From a virus, in IMG/VR virus record IMGVR_UViG_3300006920_000231, positions 1 through 24,784 of that record: a stretch of DNA of 24,784 bases; one strand, 5' to 3'. Made by a program: the position numbers and the translations under genes. Numbering within the stretch: the first letter of the stretch is position 1; each line of letters opens with the position of its first letter. This document shows positions 12,801 through 24,665 of this stretch, piece after piece. The notes under the pieces are model-generated. The model was not told the DNA's origin. It saw only the letters and a list, made by a program, of their open reading frames with translations, and did not search any database.

Positions 12801-13043
12801 TTAAAGTAACTTGGCTATATCTTCTTGATACTTATCTGTTAGTTGCTTCAAACGTTTCATAAAACCATAAATAAGTTCTGTATTCTCGTACTCAGGTAAC
12901 TTAGAATCCATTGCTTTCTTAAACTCATCAGCGGTAACATGGTCATAAATTAATTCCAAGTTACCGTATTTTTTTAGATGTACACTAACACAAGATAATA
13001 CTATATCTTCTATACCTTTGTGTGTTTCTTTTTTTACATTCAT
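12801..13043 (-). CDS. 80-aa protein at the end of the replication operon
   Basis: The gene reads MNVKKETHKGIEDIVLSC and continues as a helical, charged protein rich in Lys, Glu and Leu. An open frame extends upstream to 13076, but the ATG at 13043 overlaps the RNR stop as ATGA, the coupling used throughout this genome, so that start is chosen. I do not recognise the family. It is the last gene of the leftward operon. Its stop codon (reverse complement of 12801-12803) abuts the stop of the opposing + strand gene. Confidence 0.6.
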   Translation of the reverse strand: MNVKKETHKGIEDIVLSCVSVHLKKYGNLELIYDHVTADEFKKAMDSKLPEYENTELIYGFMKRLKQLTDKYQEDIAKLL

Positions 13044-14956
13044 ATATCCACAACTTCGCACACTCCAGCACTGCAAGCAAGTTCTTGAGAAGCTTTAGTG
13101 TTGTCCTCTTCTTCGTATTCATCAAACTTTTTCCAATCAATAAACTCAGGCATTTCAGAGGATAGTTTCTTGTACTCTTCTTTCGTACTGTCTTGGTACG
13201 GTGCTTGCCTGTAACTGTGGTCAGAAAAAGGCAGGAAGCTGATGCCACTCAAACTGTCAAAATTAGAGTAGCACCAGTTCCCTACCTCAATCCATTCATG
13301 CTCTTTAACACTCACCGTAATAGAAGGTTTATGTTCACACCAATGGTCACTAAAACGTTTCCATACGTGTAGTTGCTCCAGAGCCTTCATATCAGTCCTA
13401 CATATTGCAGCTTCAGGTGATTTGAAAGGAAAGGAAAAAACCACCGTATTGCTAGGACTGTTAAAGTCAGGTTCATTTGGAATGCCTTGATCCATGAGGA
13501 AAGCTGATAACGGATCTTTAACATCCCCACGCACAGTTCTGACGTAGTACGGAGCGTGTCGAGCATGAATACCACTAGAAGCGTCAGTTAGCTGGCTGAC
13601 AGTTCCAGATGGTTTAACACAAGTTGTAGCCGTTGACTGAGGGATGCCAAGGAGACTCGACCACTTCTTGTTAGTTTCTACAACTGTATCGCGTAGTAGT
13701 TGTAGTGTCTTTTCGGCATTGGACGCATGTAACACAGCACAGTCCATTATGCCTGTCAAAGATACGCCAAGTAACCGTTCTTCTTCGGTATTGTTCTTCC
13801 AGCGTGTTCTAAGATATTTAAAATCTGTAAGTGTAGCTTGTATTGTACCAAGTATAGAAGCAAGTTCTGCTTTCTTACGTAAGGTTTGTAAGGTGTCGTT
13901 TGATCTACACACAACTTCAGACAGATTACAAAATTGATTGGGACGCAATATTATTTCACTGCAAGGGTTTGTTCCAAAGTCAGGATGCGCCTCTCTTCTC
14001 CCGTTACTGGTAGCTTTGTTCTGAGATGCTACTCTGTTAAATATACCACGTTCACCAGACTTGCTTTCATAAAGTGCAAGCCACTCCTTCATAAACGAAG
14101 CTGTGTCAGGAGTTTCCGTATATGCCACAGAGTTATTTGCCAAAGCTCTATGAGGATACATATGCCACCAATCGCCAGATTTAGCAGAACGCATACGATC
14201 ATCAGTAAGATTACTGAGAGACAAAAGAGCAGAACGCCTGACACCTCCAACAACCACGACTTCGCCAGTTTTACACACAATGTCGTGACATTCGATAGAA
14301 GAGAGCTTGCGTCCTTTAGCATTTTTAAACACTCCTATCGTAAAGTTAAACAGGTCTTTCAACGGTTCAGGACCTGATGCTCTACCGCCAAACGTTTTTA
14401 ATCTTTCTCCTGCAGATCTAACTTTAGAGTAGTCTAACTTAGGCACACGATTAGTATACAAGAAACCTATAAGATCTTTAAAGCTTCTAGCCCAACCTTC
14501 CTTAGAGTCAGCAACACTGATAACGTCTTCCGTATCTTCGAACGGTTGATCAGGTATTGTTGGTAGGTTGTTAATGTATTGTCTTTCTACAGAAAAACCT
14601 ACTCCTGTTCCGTTCATAAGAATATATAATATTTCGTCAAAAGACTTAGGGTTATCTATAGGAACATAAGAACAGTTGTAACCAGCTACGTTTTCTCTTT
14701 TTAATGCTGGACCTGCAGTCATAAGAGAACGCATTGAAGGCATTACCTCTAGACCTAGTATAGATTTCTTCAGTAGTTTTATTTGATCGTGATTGCTTAT
14801 GTCCTTGTCTGTTGTGTATTTAACATGTTCAATCATAAAGTCTAGAAACCTTGTTACTGTTTCGTTCCAAGTTTCCCTACGATTTTCTTCTTCAAGCCAT
14901 CTAGCATATCTGCTTTTGTGTATAAACTTTTGATAATCTGTTGGCAAATCAATCAT
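13040..14956 (-). CDS. class II (adenosylcobalamin-dependent) ribonucleotide reductase, monomeric type
   Basis: This 638-aa enzyme should reduce ribonucleotides to deoxyribonucleotides for phage DNA synthesis. It matches the monomeric, Lactobacillus leichmannii-like triphosphate reductase class. Visible are YNCSY with redox Cys95, the thiyl-radical loop GTNPCSEI with Asn330, Cys332 and Glu334, and the second redox cysteine Cys343 (QFCNLSE), exactly 11 residues after Cys332 as in that family. The C-terminal shuttle pair is Cys628-x4-Cys633 (ACSAGVCEVV), as expected for this class. No small-subunit (radical-generating) gene is nearby, consistent with B12 dependence. It is shorter than the ~740-aa bacterial enzyme. 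It overlaps the genes on both sides and lies downstream of a DUF3310 gene. Confidence 0.92.
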   Translation of the reverse strand: MIDLPTDYQKFIHKSRYARWLEEENRRETWNETVTRFLDFMIEHVKYTTDKDISNHDQIKLLKKSILGLEVMPSMRSLMTAGPALKRENVAGYNCSYVPIDNPKSFDEILYILMNGTGVGFSVERQYINNLPTIPDQPFEDTEDVISVADSKEGWARSFKDLIGFLYTNRVPKLDYSKVRSAGERLKTFGGRASGPEPLKDLFNFTIGVFKNAKGRKLSSIECHDIVCKTGEVVVVGGVRRSALLSLSNLTDDRMRSAKSGDWWHMYPHRALANNSVAYTETPDTASFMKEWLALYESKSGERGIFNRVASQNKATSNGRREAHPDFGTNPCSEIILRPNQFCNLSEVVCRSNDTLQTLRKKAELASILGTIQATLTDFKYLRTRWKNNTEEERLLGVSLTGIMDCAVLHASNAEKTLQLLRDTVVETNKKWSSLLGIPQSTATTCVKPSGTVSQLTDASSGIHARHAPYYVRTVRGDVKDPLSAFLMDQGIPNEPDFNSPSNTVVFSFPFKSPEAAICRTDMKALEQLHVWKRFSDHWCEHKPSITVSVKEHEWIEVGNWCYSNFDSLSGISFLPFSDHSYRQAPYQDSTKEEYKKLSSEMPEFIDWKKFDEYEEEDNTKASQELACSAGVCEVVDI

Positions 14957-15206
14957 CTACTTTTTCCTTTAACTTTTCTAAATACCATAACGCCTTACCT
15001 AAATCTTCTTTTGGGTTTCCCTTGTGTTTATATCTTATAACATACTTTAAAGCGTTTCCTTTTAAATAACCAAGAAACTCTATCTTAGTCATAGACATTT
15101 CTATCAGATCAATAGCCTCAACGTCAAGCATATTATAATGTGACGGGTTGTTTACTGGATCTTCGTCTTCTTTCTTTTTCTCAATCTTTGTTGCTTCCAC
15201 CATCAT
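14949..15206 (-). CDS. DUF3310 protein (T7 gp1.7-related nucleotide kinase family)
   Basis: The protein carries the DUF3310 signature: NPSHY near the N-terminus, then ID-x-I-E, and the strongly conserved helix YLKGNALKYVIRYKHKGN followed by EDLGKALWYLEKL. The T7 member gp1.7 is a nucleotide kinase, so a role in nucleotide supply beside RNR is reasonable, though many DUF3310 proteins are untested. A longer frame begins at a TTG (15218). The sequence GAGGATAAGG just upstream of two ATGs fits a ribosome site, so the ATG at 15206 (85 aa) is preferred; 15203 is nearly as good. It overlaps the RNR start by 8 bases. Confidence 0.8.
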   Translation of the reverse strand: MMVEATKIEKKKEDEDPVNNPSHYNMLDVEAIDLIEMSMTKIEFLGYLKGNALKYVIRYKHKGNPKEDLGKALWYLEKLKEKVDD

Positions 15207-15591
15207 CCTTATCCTCAAAAGAAAATGTTAAAGTTACGTTATCCTTTTCTTCTTCTTCGCTGTTATTTCTGTAACTATCTAGTGATACTACCTTTTGACT
15301 TTTTTCAATCTCTTCATTTTCATCCCTAATAGAAGCGATACCTATATCCATAACATGTTCTGTCTCTTTACTGATTAACTCCGTAAGACCCTTACCAAGT
15401 ATCTGACAAACGTTAGCTTCGCCATCTTCTCTATTAGTCGTTGTGTCCAAACAAAACATAGAAAAAACATTATCACCCATATCCTCATTAAGTTCCAAAA
15501 CCATATACACTCTGTTAGGCTTGAGAAGATCCTTCTCCGCTTCTAACATTTCGTGAAATTTATCTTCATCCATATCGGTCACTTTAGCCAT
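15181..15591 (-). CDS. acidic protein of unknown function
   Basis: This 136-aa product is very acidic. The first ~85 residues look like a small folded domain, with beta-like stretches such as NRVYMVLELNED and NVFSMFCLDTTTN. The C-terminal third is low-complexity and Glu/Asp-rich (NSEEEEKDN). I do not recognise the family. It overlaps endonuclease I upstream by 13 bases and the DUF3310 gene downstream. An acidic tail next to DNA enzymes could mimic DNA or bind a basic partner, but nothing shows this directly. Confidence 0.65.
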   Translation of the reverse strand: MAKVTDMDEDKFHEMLEAEKDLLKPNRVYMVLELNEDMGDNVFSMFCLDTTTNREDGEANVCQILGKGLTELISKETEHVMDIGIASIRDENEEIEKSQKVVSLDSYRNNSEEEEKDNVTLTFSFEDKDDGGSNKD

Positions 15592-15938
15592 GCTCTAGGT
15601 ATTTCTCCTTCGGCATATTTAAACCCATGTTTGTTACACCAATCACCATAATTGTTTTTCGATCCTTTGTAAAGCTTATTTTTACAATTTTGAAAAATAA
15701 AACGTATGTCAATGTCTGGATGTTGTTCCTTGATTAACAAATGTTTTGACCTATCTGGTGATGTGAATAAACCCTTAGTTTCTATAAATATGCCATAGTC
15801 CTGTAAATAGAAGTCTGGGTTGTATGTTCTTATTTTAGGTACGTATTGTATTTTAGTTTTTTCATACTCGTACTTAATCTTATTGTCTCTAAGAAACCTA
15901 GCAAAGTTACTTTCAAAGTTTGATCTAAATCTGTTCAA
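15579..15938 (-). CDS. T7-type endonuclease I (Holliday junction resolvase)
   Basis: The 119-aa protein aligns well with T7 gp3, the endonuclease that resolves branched DNA and helps degrade host DNA. The matching blocks are FRSNFES, TYNPDFYL, IFIETKGL, KHLLIKEQHPDIDIRFIF and KLYKGSKNNYGDWCNKHG. The four catalytic positions of T7 (Glu20, Asp55, Glu65, Lys67) correspond here to Glu9, Asp42, Glu53 and Lys55. The Asp-Glu spacing is one residue longer than in T7. The start appears to be TTG at 15938, overlapping the upstream stop as TTGA, with AGGA upstream. No ATG exists in frame before the catalytic core. The T7 basic C-terminal tail is missing, making this shorter than the 149-aa T7 enzyme. 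Confidence 0.93.
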   Translation of the reverse strand: MNRFRSNFESNFARFLRDNKIKYEYEKTKIQYVPKIRTYNPDFYLQDYGIFIETKGLFTSPDRSKHLLIKEQHPDIDIRFIFQNCKNKLYKGSKNNYGDWCNKHGFKYAEGEIPRAWLK

Positions 15939-16357
15939 CGGTCTAATCCTAATGGTGTAGGACTATATCTAGCACTAAAACGTAGCATTGTAAAGTTTAA
16001 AAACTCAGATACTTTGTTGGAGTTTTCTCTTATCTTTTCAACACTGAACTCATCGTGATCAAAAGACTCTCTACACATTACGGCAACCACTGTAGGATTT
16101 AATGCTCGTACTACTTTGTCGTAAGATTTTGTAAATTCACTTTTAAATATTTCCATTTCAGAATCTTTCCAAAAAGAACCTACATCAGTACCGCCATGTT
16201 TTTTAAGTATTATTGGAAGAGAATTAGGAAGGTGTCTGAACCTGTCGTTAACATCAGGACTACCTACTTGTTTACGATGGTCAGCGTATATAAACAATAC
16301 GTTTTTATTTTCTATTAGATCAGCCGACATTAGTTTAAACATAGAAATTATTGGCAT
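15935..16357 (-). CDS. conserved phage protein with a degenerate GDN/NAxGIxTK-like motif
   Basis: The 140-aa protein has a core LFIYADHRKQVGS (about 21-33), then FRHLPNSLPIILKKHGG (about 40-56) and SFWKDSE (about 61-67). This order resembles a phage and bacterial family whose members read vFiFGDN...R..pNaiGIpTK..P...F.tD. Here the glycine of GDN is Ala and the Asn is His (ADH), and the TK motif is KK, so it is a divergent member if it is one. Its function is unknown to me. It is coupled to the primase-helicase by TAATG and to endonuclease I by a 4-base overlap, which suggests a role in DNA processing or replication. Confidence 0.55.
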   Translation of the reverse strand: MPIISMFKLMSADLIENKNVLFIYADHRKQVGSPDVNDRFRHLPNSLPIILKKHGGTDVGSFWKDSEMEIFKSEFTKSYDKVVRALNPTVVAVMCRESFDHDEFSVEKIRENSNKVSEFLNFTMLRFSARYSPTPLGLDR

Positions 16358-17982
16358 TAATCGTCTACCTCTTCTTCTAGCTCTAGGTCACGTTCTCTCA
16401 TACGTCCGTCTTGAAAGTCATAGAACATTTTAGAACAAAGACCAGTAAGACCTGTAAACCTATTCTTAATAACGCGAACGTATGTTGTGTGCCTTTCTAT
16501 CTCGTCATCAGCTTGTCCGTTACGTTCCAATCCGATAACAATGTCAGACAGTTGACCAATACTTGCAGATCCTCTGAGATCAGAAAGAGAAGTGCTTAGA
16601 CCCTCCTCATGCGACCCTTGCATTGGCCTACGTAAATGAGACACAGTAATTAAACATATGTTAAGTTCTTGTACAAGCGTTCTAAGCTTAGTCATACACT
16701 CATCAATAGTTTTACGCTCATCAAATGTATGTTCTTGTGAGCTTACAAGTATGCTGATATGATCTAGTATTATATACTTACACTTTGCAGCTTTAACAAA
16801 GTATCTTATTCGTGAAAGAATGTTGTCGATGCTGTTAGATCCAAAGTGATCAAAGAAAAAGTATCGTCCCGAACCAATAGTATCGTCATACGCTTTCTTG
16901 TATTCTTCGTCTGTATATTCTGTAGACGGTAAGTGTAGTTGTTTACCTATCCACAAACTCATCATTGACTCTGCAGTGGTTCTAACATTCTCCTCCATAA
17001 ACATCATACCAATATTATCTTCAGTCTGTTCGAATATATGTTCTATGATCTCACGCAGAAAACTACTTTTACCTATGCCTGTTCCAGCACAAACTGTAAT
17101 AAGTTCTCCCATACGTATGCCGTATGTCATTCTATTTATACCGTCAAAAGGATATGTAACTTCAGTCTTTGCAGGACCTTCTTTTAGTTTATCCCAAAGA
17201 TCTGTTCCTGCTATGATACCGTCAGGCGTATACCTGTCTGCGTTCCACCACAGCTTCACAAAATCATCGCTTTTATTTTCTATAAGGTAATCGTTAGCAT
17301 CTTTAAGCTTGAGTGTTACTACTTTAGCTTTAGGTGCTAAGAGTTCAGCTACTTGCTTTGCAGCCTTCCTTCCAGGTCTGTCGCTGTCAAAGCATACAAC
17401 GATAGTGTCGTAACTCATAAGAAACTCAAAAGATTTCTGTACATCGTTTATAGCACTAGATGCTCCGTTCTTAATAGATACGACAGGCCACTTAGAGTCC
17501 ATCATTTGATAGGCTGCAAGAGCGTCAAGTTCTCCTTCGCACAACGTTATGTACTTACCGCCTTTTCTACAGTTGTTTTGATTAAACAGTACAGTACTTT
17601 CCCAATCACCTGTGGTCATAAAACATTTTTGTTCGTTAGCATAATACTTAATCTTATTAGCTATCCATTCGTTGTCTTCATTGTAATATGGGAAGTATTG
17701 TTTAAAACCATCAGAACCTACAGTAACGTTAAAGTCCTCACACGTTTGCTGTGTTATGTTGCGATTAGGTATACTCACAGATTTACCTTTTTCCAACAAA
17801 CTTGGTTTAACACCTATATGTCGCATAGGTTGTTCCTCTTCTTCGTCATCTTCTAACAACTCATCAACAGGAGGGTGATAAGTGTCGCAAGAAAAACATT
17901 TAGTGCTTCCATCGTTGTTAACTGCAAGCGCATTACTGCTTCCGCAATCTGCACATGGTTGATGCGTCTTTTGATATTCCAT
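16357..17982 (-). CDS. T7 gp4-type primase-helicase
   Basis: This 541-aa protein primes and unwinds DNA at the phage fork. The N-terminal zinc finger has Cys10-x2-Cys13 and Cys29-x2-Cys32, so it is the full-length primase form. A TOPRIM fold follows, with CEGELDAL (Glu149) and the acidic pair in VVCFDSDRPG (Asp199, Asp201). The helicase domain has Walker A CAGTGIGKS (298-306, Lys305), an EEN motif at 330-332, Walker B YIILDH (Asp407), a TVSHLRRP motif and LSDLRGSASIGQLSD. The C-terminus is acidic (ELEEEVDD), as in T7 gp4, where the tail contacts the polymerase. A ribosome site AAAGGGA precedes the ATG. The stop overlaps the 140-aa gene. Confidence 0.95.
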   Translation of the reverse strand: MEYQKTHQPCADCGSSNALAVNNDGSTKCFSCDTYHPPVDELLEDDEEEEQPMRHIGVKPSLLEKGKSVSIPNRNITQQTCEDFNVTVGSDGFKQYFPYYNEDNEWIANKIKYYANEQKCFMTTGDWESTVLFNQNNCRKGGKYITLCEGELDALAAYQMMDSKWPVVSIKNGASSAINDVQKSFEFLMSYDTIVVCFDSDRPGRKAAKQVAELLAPKAKVVTLKLKDANDYLIENKSDDFVKLWWNADRYTPDGIIAGTDLWDKLKEGPAKTEVTYPFDGINRMTYGIRMGELITVCAGTGIGKSSFLREIIEHIFEQTEDNIGMMFMEENVRTTAESMMSLWIGKQLHLPSTEYTDEEYKKAYDDTIGSGRYFFFDHFGSNSIDNILSRIRYFVKAAKCKYIILDHISILVSSQEHTFDERKTIDECMTKLRTLVQELNICLITVSHLRRPMQGSHEEGLSTSLSDLRGSASIGQLSDIVIGLERNGQADDEIERHTTYVRVIKNRFTGLTGLCSKMFYDFQDGRMRERDLELEEEVDD

Positions 17983-17986
17983 TGTA

Positions 17987-18232
17987 TTATCCCTTTACTA
18001 ATTCTGATACAATTCCGTTTGTAAATATAGATAAAGCCACACTGTTTACAACAATTAAAGCTCTATCGTTCCACACTATAGAGACATACAGCCATCCAAG
18101 TAATCCTACAAAGTGTACATATAGATTATAAGGGAAGATGTTTTGGCTTGTCAAGATCATACCAAGCATCAGCACTATAGACGATGCCCACTTAACGTAC
18201 CAAGTTAAATCTCTTTCCTTTTGCTCTGTCAT
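17987..18232 (-). CDS. small multi-pass membrane protein (DUF6552-like)
   Basis: The 81-aa product has three likely membrane segments: about residues 15-29 (WASSIVLMLGMILT), 36-53 (LYVHFVGLLGWLYVSIVW) and 58-77 (ALIVVNSVALSIFTNGIV). The central block NLYVHFVGLLGWL followed by WNDRALIVVN resembles a small family annotated DUF6552, found in marine bacteria and phages; this assignment is from memory. Function is unknown. It sits inside the replication operon between a nuclease and the primase-helicase, coupled to the nuclease by TAATG and 4 bases before the helicase start. A membrane tether or exclusion factor is conceivable, but neither is shown by the sequence. Confidence 0.7.
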   Translation of the reverse strand: MTEQKERDLTWYVKWASSIVLMLGMILTSQNIFPYNLYVHFVGLLGWLYVSIVWNDRALIVVNSVALSIFTNGIVSELVKG

Positions 18233-19086
18233 TACACTATGAGTTCCTCAACTTTCGGCTCTTTTTCTACATGTGTAAAATATTCTTTACCTTGTGCGTA
18301 AAGAAATACTCTTAAACCATCCCCATCGTTTGCGTCTTTCCAACAATCAAACTTATACTCGCAGAAGACGCAGTTCTTATCGATAACGCGATTACCTGAC
18401 GAACCTTGTGGTTTATCATCATAACATCTTTCTGGGGCATCTTTATCTTTTACAAGTTTCTTTAAATGTTTAACCCTATCCTCTACATCTATCATGGTTA
18501 GTTCGTCAATCTCTGTAAGAACCATGTCAGCGTTGCTTTTATCATACGCCCAAAAATAGCCGTTATCTCCTCCTTCTGCTTGAACGTAACCACTTAACTG
18601 AGCTATGTACCCAAAAGGATCTTCGTGTATAAGGTTATTCTCTTTAAATTTTTTAAATCCAAAACTGGAAGCAGACTTAACATCTACTAGGACATCGTCT
18701 ATCTTGCAATCTATATGTCCTTTTATTCCTCCGACCACGACTTCTTTCTGTCGGTCTGTTACTCTATGTCCAGCTTCTTGCGCCAACAATAAAAGAAAAG
18801 ACTCTACAAGATTACCAAAGAAAAATCTTAGTTTGTCTTGTCCCGACAACTCTTCTCTTTTAAGATCGCTGTTAAATTCGTACCAAAGCTTACGATCTTT
18901 TCTTCCAATAGAAGACATACGTAATCTTGGACTACCATCTCGTTTTTCTCCAGATAAGAATATACCTATATCCTCACGTAAAGCGTTGAAAAATTCTTTT
19001 AAATGTTTCTCATCAACACCTTGTTTTTTACCTTCCATAAGAAGATTGTGTATGTCTGGTATTAATGTTTCAATGCTTTTTTTCAT
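18232..19086 (-). CDS. Cas4/RecB-like PD-(D/E)XK nuclease with four-cysteine cluster
   Basis: The 284-aa protein has the ordered motifs of this nuclease class: GNLVESF (Glu95), IKGHIDCKID with His124 and Asp126, VLVDVKSAS with Asp135 and Lys137, and the YIAQLSGY glutamine (Gln163). Cysteines at 221, 239, 242 and 248 fit a Cas4/AddB-like iron-sulfur arrangement: one upstream Cys, then C-x2-C-x5-C. Phage members are thought to act as DNA exonucleases in host DNA breakdown or recombination, replacing T7 gp6. Its position in the replication operon agrees. The upstream 108 bp lack a strong ribosome site; only GAAAGA, inside a small hairpin, precedes the ATG. Confidence 0.85.
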   Translation of the reverse strand: MKKSIETLIPDIHNLLMEGKKQGVDEKHLKEFFNALREDIGIFLSGEKRDGSPRLRMSSIGRKDRKLWYEFNSDLKREELSGQDKLRFFFGNLVESFLLLLAQEAGHRVTDRQKEVVVGGIKGHIDCKIDDVLVDVKSASSFGFKKFKENNLIHEDPFGYIAQLSGYVQAEGGDNGYFWAYDKSNADMVLTEIDELTMIDVEDRVKHLKKLVKDKDAPERCYDDKPQGSSGNRVIDKNCVFCEYKFDCWKDANDGDGLRVFLYAQGKEYFTHVEKEPKVEELIV

Positions 19087-19095
19087 TATAATATA

Positions 19096-19110
19096 TCTTT
19101 CGTTGAAAGA
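19096..19110 (-). other. small stem-loop immediately upstream of the nuclease start
   Basis: A perfect 6-bp stem with a 3-base loop (TCTTTC, AAC, GAAAGA in the - strand RNA) ends 9 bases before the ATG at 19086. The 3' arm GAAAGA is the only purine-rich candidate ribosome site for that gene, so the fold would hide it. This is seen directly; effect on translation is inferred. Confidence 0.5.
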
Positions 19111-19146
19111 AAAGTTATGCTAGTAGCCCCGTCCCTCGCTCTAGCA
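19105..19146 (-). terminator. candidate terminator or processing hairpin between SSB and nuclease
   Basis: In the - strand RNA, TGCTAG pairs with CTAGCA (118-123 with 141-146). An inner AGC pairs with GCT across one bulged base, with a GC-rich loop. The hairpin is followed by TAACTTTTCTTTC, a pyrimidine- and T-rich stretch. This is terminator-like but not a clean U tract, so partial termination or RNA processing is also possible. It lies in one of the two longest gaps of the window. Confidence 0.45.
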
Positions 19147-19148
19147 CC

Positions 19149-19161
19149 GATAGCTCCTATC
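19149..19161 (-). other. additional stem-loop in the SSB-nuclease gap
   Basis: GATAG and CTATC form a 5-bp stem around a 3-base loop, just upstream of the larger hairpin in transcript order. The surrounding - strand sequence is G-rich (GTAGGTAGGGGTAGTGG), clearly unlike the AT-rich coding background. Together with its two neighbours it makes the gap a multi-hairpin RNA region. I recognise no named riboswitch or RNA family. Confidence 0.4.
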
Positions 19162-19194
19162 CACTACCCCTACCTACTTTTACGAAATGAAGAT

Positions 19195-19635
19195 TTAAAG
19201 TTCTTCGTCTTCGACATCAAACGGAATGTCATCTAGCTCTTCAGGTTCTAATACATCGCCACCTGCACCTGCATAGGCTTCCAGTTGCAATACCATTACA
19301 GAGTTAAGGTTAGCACTCTTACCTGATTTGCCTTTAAACGTCCAATCAAAAGGGTTGATGGACACTTTAATCTTAGAACCATTACCGATAAGCACAGTTC
19401 CATCCATAGGTGTTCCAAGATTATCTACTACCTTCGGTCTGTACTTACTAGCTTTTGCTGTAATATACATACCTTGGTCTTCTTTATTGCCTTCGCCCTT
19501 CTTAACTGAAAGACCTACTTTCTCCAGCGTCTTGATTGTTTCCTTGTCAAGATTGCATATATCAACTTGATACTTTCCCGACATTTCATTTACATCAAAA
19601 ACTGAAGCCCACTTCGCTGTTCCACGTACTATCAT
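19195..19635 (-). CDS. phage single-stranded DNA-binding protein
   Basis: The 146-aa protein resembles phage SSBs that play the part of T7 gp2.5. Conserved blocks include MIVRGTAKWASVF, SGKYQVDICNLD, GMYITAKASKYRPKVVD, VLIGNGSKIKVSINPF and a terminal ELDDIPFDVEDEEL. The acidic tail is the usual handle for polymerase and helicase partners, though it ends in Leu and not in the Phe of T7 gp2.5. It would coat single-stranded DNA at the fork. A strong AGGAG lies 7 bases before the ATG, the best ribosome site in this operon, fitting high expression. Stem-loops lie on both sides of the gene. Confidence 0.85.
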   Translation of the reverse strand: MIVRGTAKWASVFDVNEMSGKYQVDICNLDKETIKTLEKVGLSVKKGEGNKEDQGMYITAKASKYRPKVVDNLGTPMDGTVLIGNGSKIKVSINPFDWTFKGKSGKSANLNSVMVLQLEAYAGAGGDVLEPEELDDIPFDVEDEEL

Positions 19636-19667
19636 AGATTTTCTCCTATTATCTATTTTTAAGGTTT

Positions 19668-19685
19668 AAGCAGTCTACACTGCTT
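19668..19685 (-). other. stem-loop spanning the nuclease stop codon, upstream of SSB
   Basis: AAGCAGT and ACTGCTT form a perfect 7-bp stem around a 4-base loop (GTAG in the - strand RNA). The TAG stop codon of the 176-aa gene lies in the loop. The downstream sequence is A-rich with no U tract, so it is not a standard terminator. An RNA-processing or stabilising hairpin ahead of SSB is the likelier reading. Confidence 0.5.
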
Positions 19686-20205
19686 GTTTTACGCTGTCAA
19701 CATCTTTTTTCCAATGAAGAATATTGTCAACGTTTTCGATGATGTCACTCATCAAAACTTTACTGATTACATCTTTCCTACCGTTTCGTTGTATACACTT
19801 ATAGATTGCATCGGTAGAATTTTTAACAAAAAAAGGTGCAACTGCTTTCTCGCAGAATTTTGCTAGACCTACTCTGGGTATTAAAACAAAATCATCTTCT
19901 CTCTCAAAAGCTATTTTGTCAGCTTCACCATATAGCCAACCATTTCTTCCTTGAACGTTATGAAACTCTATCCACACCAACTCATCGTTGTAAGAAGAAT
20001 CAGATCTTGTTGACTTCTTACGAGCTTTTACATCTACTGTAAAACAATCTATACCTTTAGAGTGCTGTAAGTAAAAGTCTATGTGTTTAGCCATGTTGTC
20101 GTAATTGGAAGATTGCGTAACTTCATATCCACTATCTATTGCCAACTCTTCAAACCTGTCTTCTGCTTTTTTACCATGTTTTTCTTCTAGTGCGTACTTG
20201 CCCAT
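19675..20205 (-). CDS. putative PD-(D/E)XK-type nuclease of unknown role
   Basis: The 176-aa product begins MGKYALEEKHGKKAEDRFEE, a helix with glutamates, as in many small restriction-like nucleases. It has KHIDFYL (Asp43) followed by FTVDVKARKK (Asp58, Lys60), the spaced D and D-x-K pattern of PD-(D/E)XK enzymes. Next come ELVWIEFHNVQGRNGWLYG and a KIAFERED region common in phage homologues. I infer a DNA nuclease; the exact substrate is unknown, and the fold match is from motifs only. It overlaps the polymerase end by 19 bases, so it is translated with it. Its stop codon lies in the loop of a stem-loop. Confidence 0.65.
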   Translation of the reverse strand: MGKYALEEKHGKKAEDRFEELAIDSGYEVTQSSNYDNMAKHIDFYLQHSKGIDCFTVDVKARKKSTRSDSSYNDELVWIEFHNVQGRNGWLYGEADKIAFEREDDFVLIPRVGLAKFCEKAVAPFFVKNSTDAIYKCIQRNGRKDVISKVLMSDIIENVDNILHWKKDVDSVKQAV

Positions 20206-21914
20206 GTCTTACCTACTTTCGCGTCTGCGTTAAGTTCTAATCTTACATTAAGAATTTTTCCAGTTTCTTGCATCATTTTGTCAGCACCTAAAACGATTTC
20301 ATCTACATCGCTGTTAGCTACCTCGTACTGTAATTCGTCATGTATAGTGTTCACAAGATTAGCATCTAACTTGTTAGCCTTAATATAACGGTGCATACAT
20401 ATGCTCCATTGTTTACAAACTATTGCTCCAGCACCTTGTAATAAAGTATTCAAAGATGCATGTTGATGTCTTATAAATATTCTTCTACCATCTAGCCCCC
20501 TTACGTTGCCTTTTTCGCACACACGTTGTACCTTGTTAATTAATCTGTTTAGAGATGGCATGTTATACAGGAATTGTTTTTTAAGCTGTGCGCCATCTCT
20601 TGCTGTACCGTTTACTACAGTACCTAGTTTCTCTGCTCCAGCACCATATAAGAATGCATATATAAAAGTCTTAGCTTGCGCTCTTGTAGTAAGACCTGCA
20701 GCTTCTTGATTTGCAGTATGTGGATCACCATGTAACACAATGTCAATGTATTCTGGATCATTCATATAGTGTGCTAACATCCTAAGTTCAAGACCTTTAG
20801 CATCCATACCTACTAAACTATAATTGTCAGTGTCACCTACAGTAAAACATTCTCTGCACTGAACGCCATAAGGTTTTTCAGATGATACGACATTCGCCAT
20901 GTTGGGATCAGCGTGTGTCATGCGACCTGTTACCGCACCCATTGTAAAGACCTTACCATGTATGCGATTGTCAGCTTCACAAAACTTCAGCCATCCCTCT
21001 ACAGTCTTCCAACGTGACTCCAACATCTTCCACTCTGCAAGTTTCTTTGCTGACGCTGGAGCATTGTCAGATATTGTTTCAAGATTACGTTCACATATTT
21101 TAGGGGAGCCTTTAGGCGTAAACAATACAGGCTTCCAACCACAAGAGTTCAATCTCTCAATAATCTGTTTCGGGCTTCCTAGATTAAAAGGTTCGTACTT
21201 AAACAATGAGAAGCTACCGCCTACAACATTACAAGCATTGTCAATATCTCTGAGACCAACACTAGATAACGTACCGTCCTTTTTGATCTTAGGTGTTACC
21301 TCTCTAATAAGTTTAGCTTTAGGTTTAAACTCAAGCTTAATCTCCTGTTCTATAGATTTAGCTCTAGTGTATGTCTCCTGATACAGTTTGCTTGCTTTGT
21401 CAGTATCTAAATAGAAACCATGTTCCTTCTGCTTGTTTATTACATGTGCAATGTTATGCTCTAAGTCTATAGATTCTCTAGAGAAACTCCTACCTTCTTG
21501 TTTTAAATGTATGTATAGTTTTTCTGTAAGCTTTACGTCCTGTTTACAATACTCAATCATATTGTCAGACAATCCTTCAAAATTGTCAAACGATAACTTA
21601 TAGAACGCAAGACGTTTACCCCAAGAACCTAACGAATGTCCACCCTCTCTTTCTGGATTGAATAGACGCGACATAATAAGAGTGTCACGTATCTGTGGTA
21701 GTTTTATACCAGTGCGCCACAGTCTGTTAAGAACTGGTATATCGAACTCTATGCCATTGTGTGTTACTAGTATATCGTCTTGTGTTATAAACGATAGATG
21801 TTCTGGTTTAGTTGCAACAACCCATTCATCATGGTTTAATGTTTTAACACAAACACACCAGATAACCTTTGCGTCAAGGCTATCTGTCTCTATATCGAGA
21901 ATGTATGTTGTCAT
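20187..21914 (-). CDS. family A DNA polymerase, T7 gp5-like
   Basis: With the ATG at 21914 the enzyme is 575 aa. The proofreading domain shows Exo I YILDIETDSL (Asp7, Glu9), Exo II THNGIEFDIP (Asp58) and Exo III EYCKQD (Tyr122, Asp126). The polymerase motifs are A, VGMDAKGLELR (Asp371); B, RAQAKTFIYAFLYGAG (Lys415, Tyr419, Tyr423); and C, TIHDELQYE (525-527). Tyr419 aligns with position 762 of E. coli Pol I, the T7-like state. It is shorter than T7 gp5 (704 aa) and shows no obvious thioredoxin-binding insertion. An open frame extends to 21938, but the ATG at 21914 overlaps the methyltransferase stop (TGATG) and has AAAGGAA upstream. Confidence 0.95.
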   Translation of the reverse strand: MTTYILDIETDSLDAKVIWCVCVKTLNHDEWVVATKPEHLSFITQDDILVTHNGIEFDIPVLNRLWRTGIKLPQIRDTLIMSRLFNPEREGGHSLGSWGKRLAFYKLSFDNFEGLSDNMIEYCKQDVKLTEKLYIHLKQEGRSFSRESIDLEHNIAHVINKQKEHGFYLDTDKASKLYQETYTRAKSIEQEIKLEFKPKAKLIREVTPKIKKDGTLSSVGLRDIDNACNVVGGSFSLFKYEPFNLGSPKQIIERLNSCGWKPVLFTPKGSPKICERNLETISDNAPASAKKLAEWKMLESRWKTVEGWLKFCEADNRIHGKVFTMGAVTGRMTHADPNMANVVSSEKPYGVQCRECFTVGDTDNYSLVGMDAKGLELRMLAHYMNDPEYIDIVLHGDPHTANQEAAGLTTRAQAKTFIYAFLYGAGAEKLGTVVNGTARDGAQLKKQFLYNMPSLNRLINKVQRVCEKGNVRGLDGRRIFIRHQHASLNTLLQGAGAIVCKQWSICMHRYIKANKLDANLVNTIHDELQYEVANSDVDEIVLGADKMMQETGKILNVRLELNADAKVGKTWASTH

Positions 21915-22471
21915 CAATCTTTCCTTTGTGCTACGCATATTGTGTCATTGTGTATACCGCCATGAGTTACTAACATAATCTCTTCGTAAGTAAAACCTTT
22001 TTTTCCAACACCCATACTATTCCATCCAAAAGACAAAACAATACCTCCTGTTTTAACTAATGGTCTAATACGATCTTTCAGCTTAGTATAGAATGTAGAT
22101 TGAGTATCTTGTTGCGTTGCTTTAATACCAACCTCAGTAAAACATTCACTAATCTGTCTAACACTGTATGGTGGATCATATATAACAACATCTGCTTTAA
22201 TGTTACTTTCTAATAAGTGATCTAAGAAGTCTTCTGCCTTCATATGAAATTGAGCAGACGTATTAGGATTAAGATCGTTCGTTATTGTTCCTAGTTTACA
22301 ATTTCTTGCAAACGGATCAACAACAGCAAGACTTCCAGCCGTCCTATAATCAAAATCATGGTAATCTTCACCACAAACTGATTTTATCCAATCCTCCATA
22401 AACAATCTAATTGGTTTTATTTCTGAACATGCTTTGTTAGGCATTGCGAATGTTTGGCTGAAGTTCGTCAT
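21914..22471 (-). CDS. DNA adenine methyltransferase-like protein (DPPY type)
   Basis: The 185-aa protein is a SAM-dependent methyltransferase, probably acting on adenine N6 in DNA. It has the SAM-binding motif VDPFARN (51-57) and the catalytic DPPY (99-102) in VVIYDPPYSVRQ. A late strand, GGIVLSFGWNSMGVGKK, is typical of phage adenine methyltransferases. No restriction endonuclease partner is visible, so it is an orphan enzyme. It is the first gene of the leftward operon, about 48 bases from the predicted transcription start, with AAAGGG before the ATG. The target sequence cannot be read from the protein. It overlaps the polymerase start as TGATG. Confidence 0.85.
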   Translation of the reverse strand: MTNFSQTFAMPNKACSEIKPIRLFMEDWIKSVCGEDYHDFDYRTAGSLAVVDPFARNCKLGTITNDLNPNTSAQFHMKAEDFLDHLLESNIKADVVIYDPPYSVRQISECFTEVGIKATQQDTQSTFYTKLKDRIRPLVKTGGIVLSFGWNSMGVGKKGFTYEEIMLVTHGGIHNDTICVAQRKD

Positions 22472-22504
22472 ATTTTCCCTTTCAAAATAATTAATATTAT
22501 GTAG

Positions 22505-22533
22505 TTGACATCCAAATTGTTATTCTTTATAGT
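22505..22533 (+). promoter_or_regulatory. sigma70-type promoter, rightward
   Basis: A perfect -35 box TTGACA (22505-22510), a 17-base spacer and a -10 box TATAGT (22528-22533) lie upstream of the + strand gene at 22582. Transcription would start near 22540. Both boxes and the spacing are close to ideal for a housekeeping bacterial sigma factor, so host RNA polymerase can read it early in infection. Confidence 0.75.
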
Positions 22534-22555
22534 TGCTTTGAATTTGTGTTGTCAA
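22526..22555 (-). promoter_or_regulatory. sigma70-type promoter, leftward
   Basis: On the - strand a perfect TTGACA (reverse complement of 22550-22555) is followed after 18 bases by TATAAA (reverse complement of 22526-22531). Predicted start is near 22519, driving the methyltransferase and the whole replication operon. Its -10 shares bases with the -10 of the rightward promoter. Confidence 0.7.
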
Positions 22556-22581
22556 GCATTTTTATTTGAAAAGGAAAAATA

Positions 22582-22842
22582 ATGTCAGATTTTAAAAAAT
22601 TATTTGTAGGCCATGTCGGTAATCGTTTCTTTAGCGTCAAGTTTAAAAAGCAAAACGGTGCTGATAGAATACTAACAGGCCGTTTAGGTGTAACAAAACA
22701 TCTTAAAGGTGGTTCTAGATCCGCAACAAACGACAAGTATCTCATTGTATGGGAATCAGCAACAAAAGGTTATCGGTACGTTAACATCGATACGTTGCAG
22801 TGGATAAAATGTCGTGGTATAAAAATGGATGTAGCAGTATGA
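22582..22842 (+). CDS. WYL_2-like / SH3 beta-barrel phage protein
   Basis: The 86-aa protein fits a phage family of small SH3-like beta barrels (WYL_2, formerly DUF2693). Typical blocks are RFFSVKFKKQNGADR, LTGRLGVTKHLKGGSRS, KYLIVWESATKGYRYVNIDT and a closing W-I-x-C. Relatives share the RLGV-x-KHLKGG and KYLIV signatures. Related WYL folds bind nucleic acid or nucleotide ligands, so a regulatory or nucleic-acid-binding role is plausible but unproven. It is the first gene of the rightward early cluster, with AAGGAA 6-7 bases before the ATG and a predicted leader of about 42 bases. Its stop overlaps the next start (ATGA). Confidence 0.75.
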   Translation: MSDFKKLFVGHVGNRFFSVKFKKQNGADRILTGRLGVTKHLKGGSRSATNDKYLIVWESATKGYRYVNIDTLQWIKCRGIKMDVAV

Positions 22843-23336
22843 ACATATTTTATTTATCAGATTGTCCAGAACAATCGGCAAAAGATCATTGTGATAAACA
22901 CGTTGTCAAGATGATATTAGAGACCGCTCAGTTACTATCTACAGCACATCGTGTGTTAGATGGTGACGAGTTTGCAGATACTGGAGGTCTGTATAAGACA
23001 GTGCATAAAAATCATCCATCTGCTAAGTGGGTTAGAGCGTCAGGAACTAACTACAAATGGGCTTTAAATTTGTTTAGGTATTTAAATAAAGAGTACGTAA
23101 GACGGTATAAGAAAACACATAAGTCTTTTACGTTAATGCAGATGCTTGCTGTATTACCACGCAACATACCTTTTGCTAGGTTTGTAGAGCCTCCGCAGTG
23201 TATGCCAGATCATTACAAACACGACAATACTATAACAGCATATCGTAACTACTACAAAGGTGATAAGCGTAGGTTTGCAAAGTGGTCTTACAGTGATAAA
23301 CCCTCTTGGTGGACGGAGTTAAGCTATGACTATTAG
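22839..23336 (+). CDS. conserved phage protein of unknown function with CDKHVVKM motif
   Basis: The ATG at 22839 overlaps the previous stop as ATGA, giving 165 aa; an upstream ATG at 22800 in the same frame is rejected for that reason. The family is common in marine phages. Signatures are MNIFYLSDCP, HCDKHVVKMILETAQLL (17-33), STAHRVLDG, HKNHPSAKWVRAS (56-68), PPQCMPDHYK (118-127) and AYRNYYKGDKRRFAKW. Several Cys and His (Cys18, His21, His37, His56, His59) are invariant in my memory of relatives and may bind metal or form an active site. I do not know its activity. Confidence 0.7.
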   Translation: MNIFYLSDCPEQSAKDHCDKHVVKMILETAQLLSTAHRVLDGDEFADTGGLYKTVHKNHPSAKWVRASGTNYKWALNLFRYLNKEYVRRYKKTHKSFTLMQMLAVLPRNIPFARFVEPPQCMPDHYKHDNTITAYRNYYKGDKRRFAKWSYSDKPSWWTELSYDY

Positions 23337-23637
23337 TAAAAAATCAGTACGACCTTATAACGAAGAAGCCTGTATACAATCACATAAGGCTGTTCTAGAC
23401 GCAATACGAGATCTTACACGAAAACATCCAAAAGATACTCAAATCATCTTGCATGGGGCTTTACACGCTGTATTCAGCGAAATTTTAGTAGAGTCTCCCT
23501 CTGGTATGCATACAGTCAGCTTTATCTTGAACCAGCTATCTAATATGATGGACGAAGCTATCGTTACCAGCGAACAAGAACTACAAGACGAGTTGTTAGA
23601 TGAAGCTTTAGACGATGACGAGGAGACAATGCACTGA
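23326..23637 (+). CDS. small acidic helical protein of unknown function
   Basis: The 103-aa product has a basic N-terminus, a helical centre with HGALHAVFSEILVESPSG (about 43-60) and a very acidic C-terminal third (ELLDEALDDDEETMH). No domain is recognised. It overlaps the preceding gene by 11 bases and shares one base with the SET-domain gene (TGATG), so it belongs to the same translationally coupled cluster. Acidic small early proteins can act as inhibitors of host enzymes, but this is only a possibility. Confidence 0.6.
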   Translation: MTISKKSVRPYNEEACIQSHKAVLDAIRDLTRKHPKDTQIILHGALHAVFSEILVESPSGMHTVSFILNQLSNMMDEAIVTSEQELQDELLDEALDDDEETMH

Positions 23638-23948
23638 TGACTTACACGCCCTTACCAGACAACGTTACAATAAAGAAAAGCAAAATACATGGTCTAGGTT
23701 TATTTGCAAAAAACAATATACCCAAAGACACAAAATTAGGGTTAACACATATATTTATAGGTGAAGAGATAGTAAGAACACCTCTTGGTGGTTTTTATAA
23801 CCACAGTGATGACCCTAATTGCTCAACGTATTATCCGCTTGATGACCTATTTCTTGTAACAGATAGACTTTGTTTAAGAACCATCAAAGACATACAAAAA
23901 GGTGAGGAGATAACAGTTAAGTACACTCTTTACAGTGTAGATGTATAA
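23637..23948 (+). CDS. small SET-domain protein, putative protein lysine methyltransferase
   Basis: The 103-aa protein carries the three SET-domain signatures in order. VTIKKSKIHGLGLFAKNNI (10-28) gives the SAM-side G-x-G loop (Gly19, Gly21). FYNHSDDPNC (53-62) is the N-H-S-x-x-P-N SAM-binding knot (Asn55, His56). IQKGEEITVKYT (86-97) ends in the expected catalytic-region tyrosine (Tyr96). It is shorter than the usual ~130-aa core because the insert between knots is minimal, but nothing essential seems missing. SET enzymes methylate lysines on proteins, here perhaps a host or virion protein. It overlaps the Mom-like gene by 8 bases. Confidence 0.85.
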   Translation: MTYTPLPDNVTIKKSKIHGLGLFAKNNIPKDTKLGLTHIFIGEEIVRTPLGGFYNHSDDPNCSTYYPLDDLFLVTDRLCLRTIKDIQKGEEITVKYTLYSVDV

Positions 23949-24498
23949 CGTTAGACAGATAGAACGTAAGGATGCATTAGATAGAATATTACACGTTCAC
24001 TACTTACATCGCGTACCTTCTATAAGTTTTACCTTTGGTTTGTTTTTACACGAAGATCTTGTCGGCACTATTACCTATGGATCACCAGCATCAGGACCTT
24101 TGTGTAGAGGAGTATGTGGTGAAGAGTTTAAAAATAAAGTGTTAGAACTCAATAGGTTAGTGCTTGATAACAACATAAAGAACGAAGCTTCCATGTTAAT
24201 AGCTGGATCTTTGAAGTTGTTACCTCAACCTAGAATAGTTGTATCCTATGCAGATACAGCGCAAGATCATAAGGGTATTGTCTATCAAGCTACTAACTGG
24301 TTGTATACTGGTTGCACTAAAGCAAGAACAGACATGAGAGCTAAAGGCGGTAAACATCCTAGACACCATGCTGGAGACAGAACTGACAGAGTGTTTAGAA
24401 GTAGTAAGCATCGTTATGTTACATTTGTAGGTAACAAGAAAGAACGTAAGACTTTAAGAAAACATTTAAACTATGGTGTAATGGAGTACCCTAAATAA
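23941..24498 (+). CDS. Mom-like adenine-modification protein (GNAT fold)
   Basis: This 185-aa protein resembles the family named after phage Mu Mom, which turns adenine in DNA into a methylcarbamoyl form and thereby blocks many restriction enzymes. Signatures are HYLHRVPSISFTFGLF (20-35), GTITYGSPASGPLCRGVCG (42-60), LELNRLVLD (68-76) and the hallmark VSYADTAQDHKGIVYQATNW (101-120) followed by LYTG. A KHRYV motif (156-160) and basic C-terminus follow. This is a broad family and most phage members are untested, so the exact modification is inferred. The start is the ATG overlapping the SET gene. Its stop shares a base with the next gene (TAATG). Confidence 0.8.
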   Translation: MYNVRQIERKDALDRILHVHYLHRVPSISFTFGLFLHEDLVGTITYGSPASGPLCRGVCGEEFKNKVLELNRLVLDNNIKNEASMLIAGSLKLLPQPRIVVSYADTAQDHKGIVYQATNWLYTGCTKARTDMRAKGGKHPRHHAGDRTDRVFRSSKHRYVTFVGNKKERKTLRKHLNYGVMEYPK

Positions 24499-24665
24499 TG
24501 GCTGATGGATGGAATACGTGGACTTGTACTAATTGTGGTTGTGTACATTGGGATGACTTAAAACCTATTTCGTGTATTATGTGCAACCACGATGAGTTTG
24601 TAGAGAACCCAGATCAATACTACGAAACTAAAAAGGAAAAAAATGCCAAGAAGAATGACATGTAA
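24498..24665 (+). CDS. 55-aa zinc-ribbon protein
   Basis: A short frame begins at the ATG overlapping the Mom-like stop (TAATG). It reads MADGWNTWTCTNCGCVHWDD and then CIMC before a polar, Lys-rich tail. Cys10-x2-Cys13 and Cys26-x2-Cys29 form a classic four-cysteine zinc ribbon. Such small ribbons bind zinc and often contact nucleic acid or RNA polymerase. The spacing, coupling and cysteine pattern make it a real gene despite its length. Its end overlaps the next start by 23 bases. Confidence 0.75.
   Translation: MADGWNTWTCTNCGCVHWDDLKPISCIMCNHDEFVENPDQYYETKKEKNAKKNDM

Follow-up and report, generated by a model that had tools for sequence, protein, structure and literature searches.

A probable sigma70-type bidirectional promoter, conserved between the replication operon and a small-gene cluster in a group of uncultured phages

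Between the replication operon and a divergent cluster of small genes in an uncultured phage, we have analyzed a site (22505-22555) that we regard, with a probability of roughly 0.8, as a real and conserved bidirectional promoter of the sigma70 type, bound by host RNA polymerase in one orientation at a time and setting the ratio between the two transcription units. The window, i.e., the whole stretch of 24,784 nucleotides that was analyzed, is a 24.8-kb IMG/VR virus record with a GC content of 35% and is probably a fragment. According to the proposed mechanism, a single AT-rich -10 region would be read on both strands, with a consensus -35 box on either side. Host RNA polymerase would bind in one of the two orientations, clear the promoter and free the site for the next binding event. 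Both the replication operon to the left and the small-gene cluster to the right would in this way be fed from a single site, and the ratio in which initiation is split would depend on the spacers, the two -10 boxes and the A-tract of the leftward promoter, behind its -35 box. The elements of the site and the flanking genes are given below, with starts and leaders predicted from the sequence.

22505-22510 (+): rightward -35 box TTGACA, exact match, toward the small-gene cluster
22528-22533 (+): rightward -10 box TATAGT, 17-bp spacer
22550-22555 (-): leftward -35 box TTGACA (TGTCAA on the + strand), exact match, toward the replication operon
22526-22531 (-): leftward -10 box TATAAA, 18-bp spacer, without T at -7
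22559-22563 (-): A-tract (TTTTT on the + strand), upstream of the leftward -35 box
22540-22581 (+): 42-nt leader from the predicted rightward start at 22540, with ribosome-binding site AAAAGGAA, followed by ATG at 22582
22472-22519 (-): 48-nt leader from the predicted leftward start at 22519, with ribosome-binding site GAAAGGGAAA, followed by ATG at 22471
22582-22842 (+): e86, first rightward gene, WYL_2/Sm-like small protein of 86 amino acids (phrog_2267)
22800-24665 (+): rest of the rightward cluster, encoding a Pyr_excise-domain protein, a protein without assigned function, a SET-domain protein, a Mom-like protein and a small protein
21914-22471 (-): first leftward gene, DNA-methyltransferase-like (phrog_11619), beside the site in some relatives and replaced in others
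13040-21938 (-): replication operon, encoding PolA, a 176-amino-acid ORF, SSB (gp2.5-like), a Cas4-type exonuclease, a primase-helicase and a class II-like (B12-type) ribonucleotide reductase

The pair lies exactly where an earlier note on this DNA had placed it: two promoters face apart, their -10 boxes have four bases in common on opposite strands (22528-22531), and both are kept in relatives. If transcription starts near the predicted positions, 22540 (+) and 22519 (-), bases +11 to +16 of the rightward RNA coincide with the leftward -35 box and bases +10 to +15 of the leftward RNA with the rightward one, so each -35 box indeed falls within the region first transcribed from the opposite promoter, as had been claimed. 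The label 'near-consensus' is apt for the -35 boxes, which both match at 6/6 positions, but flatters the leftward side, where TATAAA is devoid of the important T at -7. Likewise, the reported TTGACA inverted repeat is present, but it is merely the two -35 boxes: its arms end at the hexamers and their separation differs between phage groups. All boxes were scored against the sigma70 consensus, which may differ from that of the host itself. An A-tract behind a -35 box occupies the position of a proximal UP element. The A-tract at 22559-22563 is thus a putative UP element, which would help the weaker leftward side.

The gene layout agrees with promoters that face the replication operon on one side and the small-gene cluster on the other. 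The start codons of the two divergent blocks are 110 bp apart, and both leaders carry a ribosome-binding site. Within the rightward cluster, the SET-domain protein is small (23637-23948; PF00856, E 1e-12) and is followed by the Mom-like DNA-modification protein (23941-24498; PF25680). The replication operon has a perfect 12/12 promoter of its own at 18154-18125 (-), inside ORF 17987-18232 and directed at the primase-helicase gene; of the loci retrieved, L002, which is nearly identical, is the only one that shares it. Three other loci (L011, L012 and L020) have different 12/12 promoters just before the ssb gene.

Conservation is a stronger argument against a chance origin of the site than the shuffle statistics given further below. 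Relatives were collected by a DNA-polymerase search of viral contigs (80 loci), and the loci that span the region and have a 71-80% identical DNA polymerase were taken as the close clade. In these close relatives an e86 homologue is divergent to the replication genes, with the site in the gap between them. The sequences form eight groups: A (window and L002), B (L003-L007), C (L009-L010), D (L011-L013), E (L015-L016), F (L018, L019 and L021), G (L020) and H (L022). All eight have TTGACA at 6/6 on both strands together with overlapping -10 boxes. Both promoters are thus conserved across related genomes, a check suggested in the earlier note, for which retention of only one of the two would have spoken against the idea. 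With one representative per group (n = 8), the invariant columns comprise both TTGACA hexamers, the TA of the rightward -10 box, the leftward AAAA and otherwise just two single T columns, while mean pairwise identity in the 17-bp spacer is 37%. The first two bases of the rightward -10 box, TA, stand at exactly N17 in 8/8 groups, and the mean match of this box (4.33/6) is highest at spacer 17 among spacers of 5-39. In every group the AAAA precedes the leftward TTGACA, at columns -8 to -5. Groups E and H have palindromic -10 boxes (CTTATAAG and ACTTTAAAGT, respectively), so that the same hexamer is read in both directions. The gene to the left of the site varies by phage (methyltransferase, the polymerase itself or unrelated small ORFs); the site thus outlives its neighbours. 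Near DNA matches of the site were absent from cultured phages.

The geometry of the site is flexible within limits. Registers were counted by scripts anchored on the -35 boxes; a MAFFT alignment including the sister clade misplaced the -10 region. Taking each start at 7 bp after its -10 box, the implied distance between start sites is 21 bp in groups A, B, C, E and G and 23 bp in D, F and H. The register of the leftward -10 box shifts between groups, the overlap with the rightward -10 box being always kept. In the sister clade (polymerase 62-65% identical) the site again lies between e86 and the replication block and its -10 region is shared; the -35 box on the e86 side is TTGACA or TTGACC, and the one on the polymerase side is a weaker but conserved TTGCAT or TTGCAA. 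Here, the implied distance is 18 bp in five loci (L024, L027, L028, L032 and L033) and 21 bp in two (L030 and L031). For bacteria, 18 bp is the commonest start-site distance and 10 and 23 bp are common as well (PMC10268837, PMC12825309). Since the overlap persists while the register changes, bidirectionality appears to be kept through a change in geometry. TATA is its own reverse complement, and a shared -10 box is therefore by itself weak evidence for a second direction. When the arms were fixed and the interior was shuffled, the joint -10 score was unusual in four groups (A, B, C and E; P 0.004-0.04), borderline in two (G and H; P 0.06) and no better than shuffled in the other two (D and F; P 0.24 and 0.30). 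The T at -7 is missing from the leftward -10 box in the window and in most groups, which, together with the scores of D and F, indicates that the case for the leftward promoter is made mainly by its -35 box and the A-tract. The leftward -10 box without its final T is a real weakness of that side. A simple promoter scanner missed the leftward promoter of the window because it demands a T at the last -10 position. A rival leftward candidate, ATAACA-16-CATAAT at 22523, was rejected, being absent from the aligned gaps of the relatives.

The site is likely used by a host sigma70-type RNA polymerase, since a single-subunit RNA polymerase (PF00940) gave no match in the window and the long relatives, most records being fragments, while a T7 control was positive. 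Phages of the T7 type have T7-like replication genes in common with the phages described here; the latter differ in their sigma70-like site and in the lack of a T7-type polymerase in the window and the long relatives. Between the site and the polymerase gene, some relatives carry repeats like ACCAGTTATACCTCACTGTAGG that resemble T7-type promoters (L018 at 5932 and 5973, L019, L014, L021 and L022), 41 bp apart where two occur. T7-type transcription, which these repeats brought to mind, was discarded on the same PF00940 result. Among cultured phages, the closest replication proteins come from Pelagibacter phages HTVC103P, HTVC104P and HTVC115P, with 40-46% identity, a likeness that is a lead only as to the host. 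In these phages the polymerase neighbourhood is not divergent at the corresponding place, and a 1644-amino-acid protein of the phage studied here had no match among cultured phages. A survey (PMC8528129) has described uncultured groups, with a GC content of 32-44%, that are related to phages of the HTVC103P type.

This promoter type is already described in bacteria, and the phage case is a strong, conserved example of it rather than a new kind of switch. The bacterial bidirectional promoters of Warman, Grainger and colleagues have the same shared, partly self-complementary -10 region on opposite strands (PMC12825309, PMC10268837). Polymerase binds them in either orientation and one binding event excludes the other (PMC12825309). 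By analogy with this work, two polymerases would be sterically excluded from occupying the phage site together, as the earlier note had supposed, and binding at the site would be mutually exclusive. The implied distances in the phages (18, 21 and 23 bp, from the -10 positions) fall within the start-site range of the E. coli promoters studied (10-23 bp), and as in bacteria the site lies between divergent genes, such that both RNAs would be mRNAs. What differs is strength. The five E. coli bidirectional promoters tested had a basal activity too low for competition; improving one -35 box raised transcription in its own direction in 4/5 of them and strongly reduced the other, and activation of one direction represses the other (PMC12825309). 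Competition thus arose only after one -35 box was improved or one direction activated, whereas both phage -35 boxes are perfect consensus sequences and are conserved across phages. With two consensus -35 boxes, competition between the directions is expected, and by this analogy the phage site may be one of true competition. Mutual exclusion without feedback would yield a time-shared split, i.e., a ratio and not a stable choice, and a ratio-setting splitter is more likely than a switch.

The same architecture may occur elsewhere. In a collection-wide pattern search for the geometry TTGACA-17-TATA-17/18-TGTCAA against a displaced control, sites in divergent gaps made up 10/77 with the true geometry and 4/101 with the control among the matches listed, once four members of this phage family had been removed (Fisher P 0.046), an excess that is only suggestive. 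Other viral contigs with this geometry in a divergent gap (L098, L101, L104, L106, L109, L114, L138, L152, L153 and L157, among the matches listed) may be further, unrelated examples of such a strong two-way promoter.

Several other readings of the site were weighed. Chance near-consensus sites in AT-rich DNA are the least probable of them and can practically be set aside. A GC content of 35% does favour such sites, and in 60 dinucleotide shuffles of the window single promoters (-35 box 6/6, -10 box at least 5/6) appeared at 0.65 per shuffled window versus three in the real one, so that neither promoter is remarkable singly; a loose version of the overlapping pair even appears about once per shuffle. 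Yet the strict pair (both -35 boxes 6/6, both -10 boxes at least 4/6 and overlapping) was found in 0/60 shuffles, and the site is retained in all groups. It is also very improbable that TTGACA...TGTCAA serves a dimeric regulator as operator and resembles a promoter only incidentally: both arms are invariant, as such an operator would have it, but they stop at the -35 hexamer, and the overall length of the repeat varies among the groups (48, 50 or 51 bp) while the -10 spacers stay at about 17-18. The possibility that the rightward promoter alone is real, with the downstream TGTCAA and T-tract kept as part of the e86 mRNA leader or as a protein-binding site, is somewhat less so but still improbable. 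The rightward -10 box is conserved better than the leftward one, and the rightward RNA would contain TGTCAA and the T-tract among its first 25 bases. Against this, TGTCAA is an exact -35 box placed 16-18 bp from a -10-like hexamer of the opposite strand in every group, and the replication operon showed no other conserved promoter ahead of it. A fixed leader signal also fails to explain why the sister clade has a different conserved hexamer (TTGCAT or TTGCAA) at about 15-16 bp from the shared -10 region.

The earlier note went further in suggesting that the site decides between the operons as an intrinsic switch; this part was not borne out, as there is no sign of feedback and no HTH_3-type repressor in the nine records searched. 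For a switch, some factor would have to act unequally on the two directions, as in plasmid system pLS20 (PMC4207663); the candidate is e86. A regulated switch, in which a phage protein, most plausibly e86, shifts the orientation of the polymerase during infection and one operon is expressed first and then the other, is in our view unlikely, if less so than the readings above. It draws on the position of e86 as first gene to the right of the site in the relatives, on its closeness to a WYL/Sm-like fold found in transcription regulators, on the repression of one direction by activation of the other in E. coli (PMC12825309) and on the Pc/Pr promoters of pLS20, a known case of a regulated switch built on divergent promoters that overlap (PMC4207663). 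Opposed to it are the missing HTH_3 repressor and the properties of e86, which has no recognised DNA-binding domain, a Pfam match below the cut-off and fold matches all at E > 0.04. Moreover, no operator-like conserved element beyond the -35 and -10 boxes and the A-tract was detected at the site among the eight groups, where lineage-specific operators are possible. In pLS20, divergent promoters likewise lie at one place and are not occupied together by polymerase, but that system needs RcoLS20, promoters of very unequal strength and DNA looping (PMC4207663), whereas the phage site has no more than a candidate regulator and no conserved operator among the eight groups.

A switch between lysis and lysogeny was rejected, with an HTH_3 protein in 0/9 records and an integrase in only 1/9. 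In phage lambda, PR and PRM do not share a -10 box and the CI and Cro operators decide between them. These are likewise divergent promoters at a phage regulatory node (contrasted in PMC4207663), from which the present site differs by the same lack of an HTH_3 repressor and the rarity of the integrase.

As a small Sm/WYL_2-like protein, e86 could be a regulator. The copy in the window scores 22.8 bits against PF10902 (WYL_2), under the cut-off of 26.7, and 10/16 members of its family match at E<=0.01 (best E 1.5e-5). The older name of this Pfam family is presumably DUF2693. DUF2693 has been placed in the WYL superfamily (PMC4012209). The predicted structure of e86 is an Sm-like barrel (pLDDT 82), with Rof, PafBC, Hfq, BrxR and DriD among the weak best fold matches of the model. 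In four loci (L018, L019, L021 and L022) the e86 frame runs without a stop into a lipobox-like segment (LMVVTLAACSPGQ), giving an ORF of 187-213 amino acids that is possibly an odd fusion of the Sm/WYL_2-like domain and a lipoprotein-like tail.

A second promoter hub was observed in long relatives, outside the window and about 4-6.5 kb beyond the e86 side (G006 44372/44412, G012 29059/29071 and G009 49947/49968; L093, L089 and L096). It consists of a back-to-back pair of perfect 12/12 sigma70 promoters, each with a 16-bp spacer, that do not share a -10 box. One is directed toward a terminase-small-subunit-like gene; the other reads into a stretch of about 500 nt that lacks clear ORFs and is conserved in parts (TAGTGGCCCATGCG...CCGCAC) among the three relatives. 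This stretch had no match in Rfam and is a candidate non-coding RNA or packaging/origin signal.

In summary, we have described what is likely an entry point of the host polymerase in one group of uncultured marine phages. Bidirectional promoters are reportedly common in bacteria, and in the five E. coli examples tested activity was too low for the two directions to compete; the phage site thus offers a natural and strong test case for polymerase competition. Its bidirectionality has been kept through changes of register (18, 21 and 23 bp) and of neighbouring genes, which suggests selection for bidirectionality as such. We consider it unlikely that polymerase competition at this strong two-way promoter, biased by e86, itself first sets and then shifts the ratio of replication to small-gene expression. 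If true, however, this would be a switch that acts via the orientation of the polymerase and not via a classical repressor.
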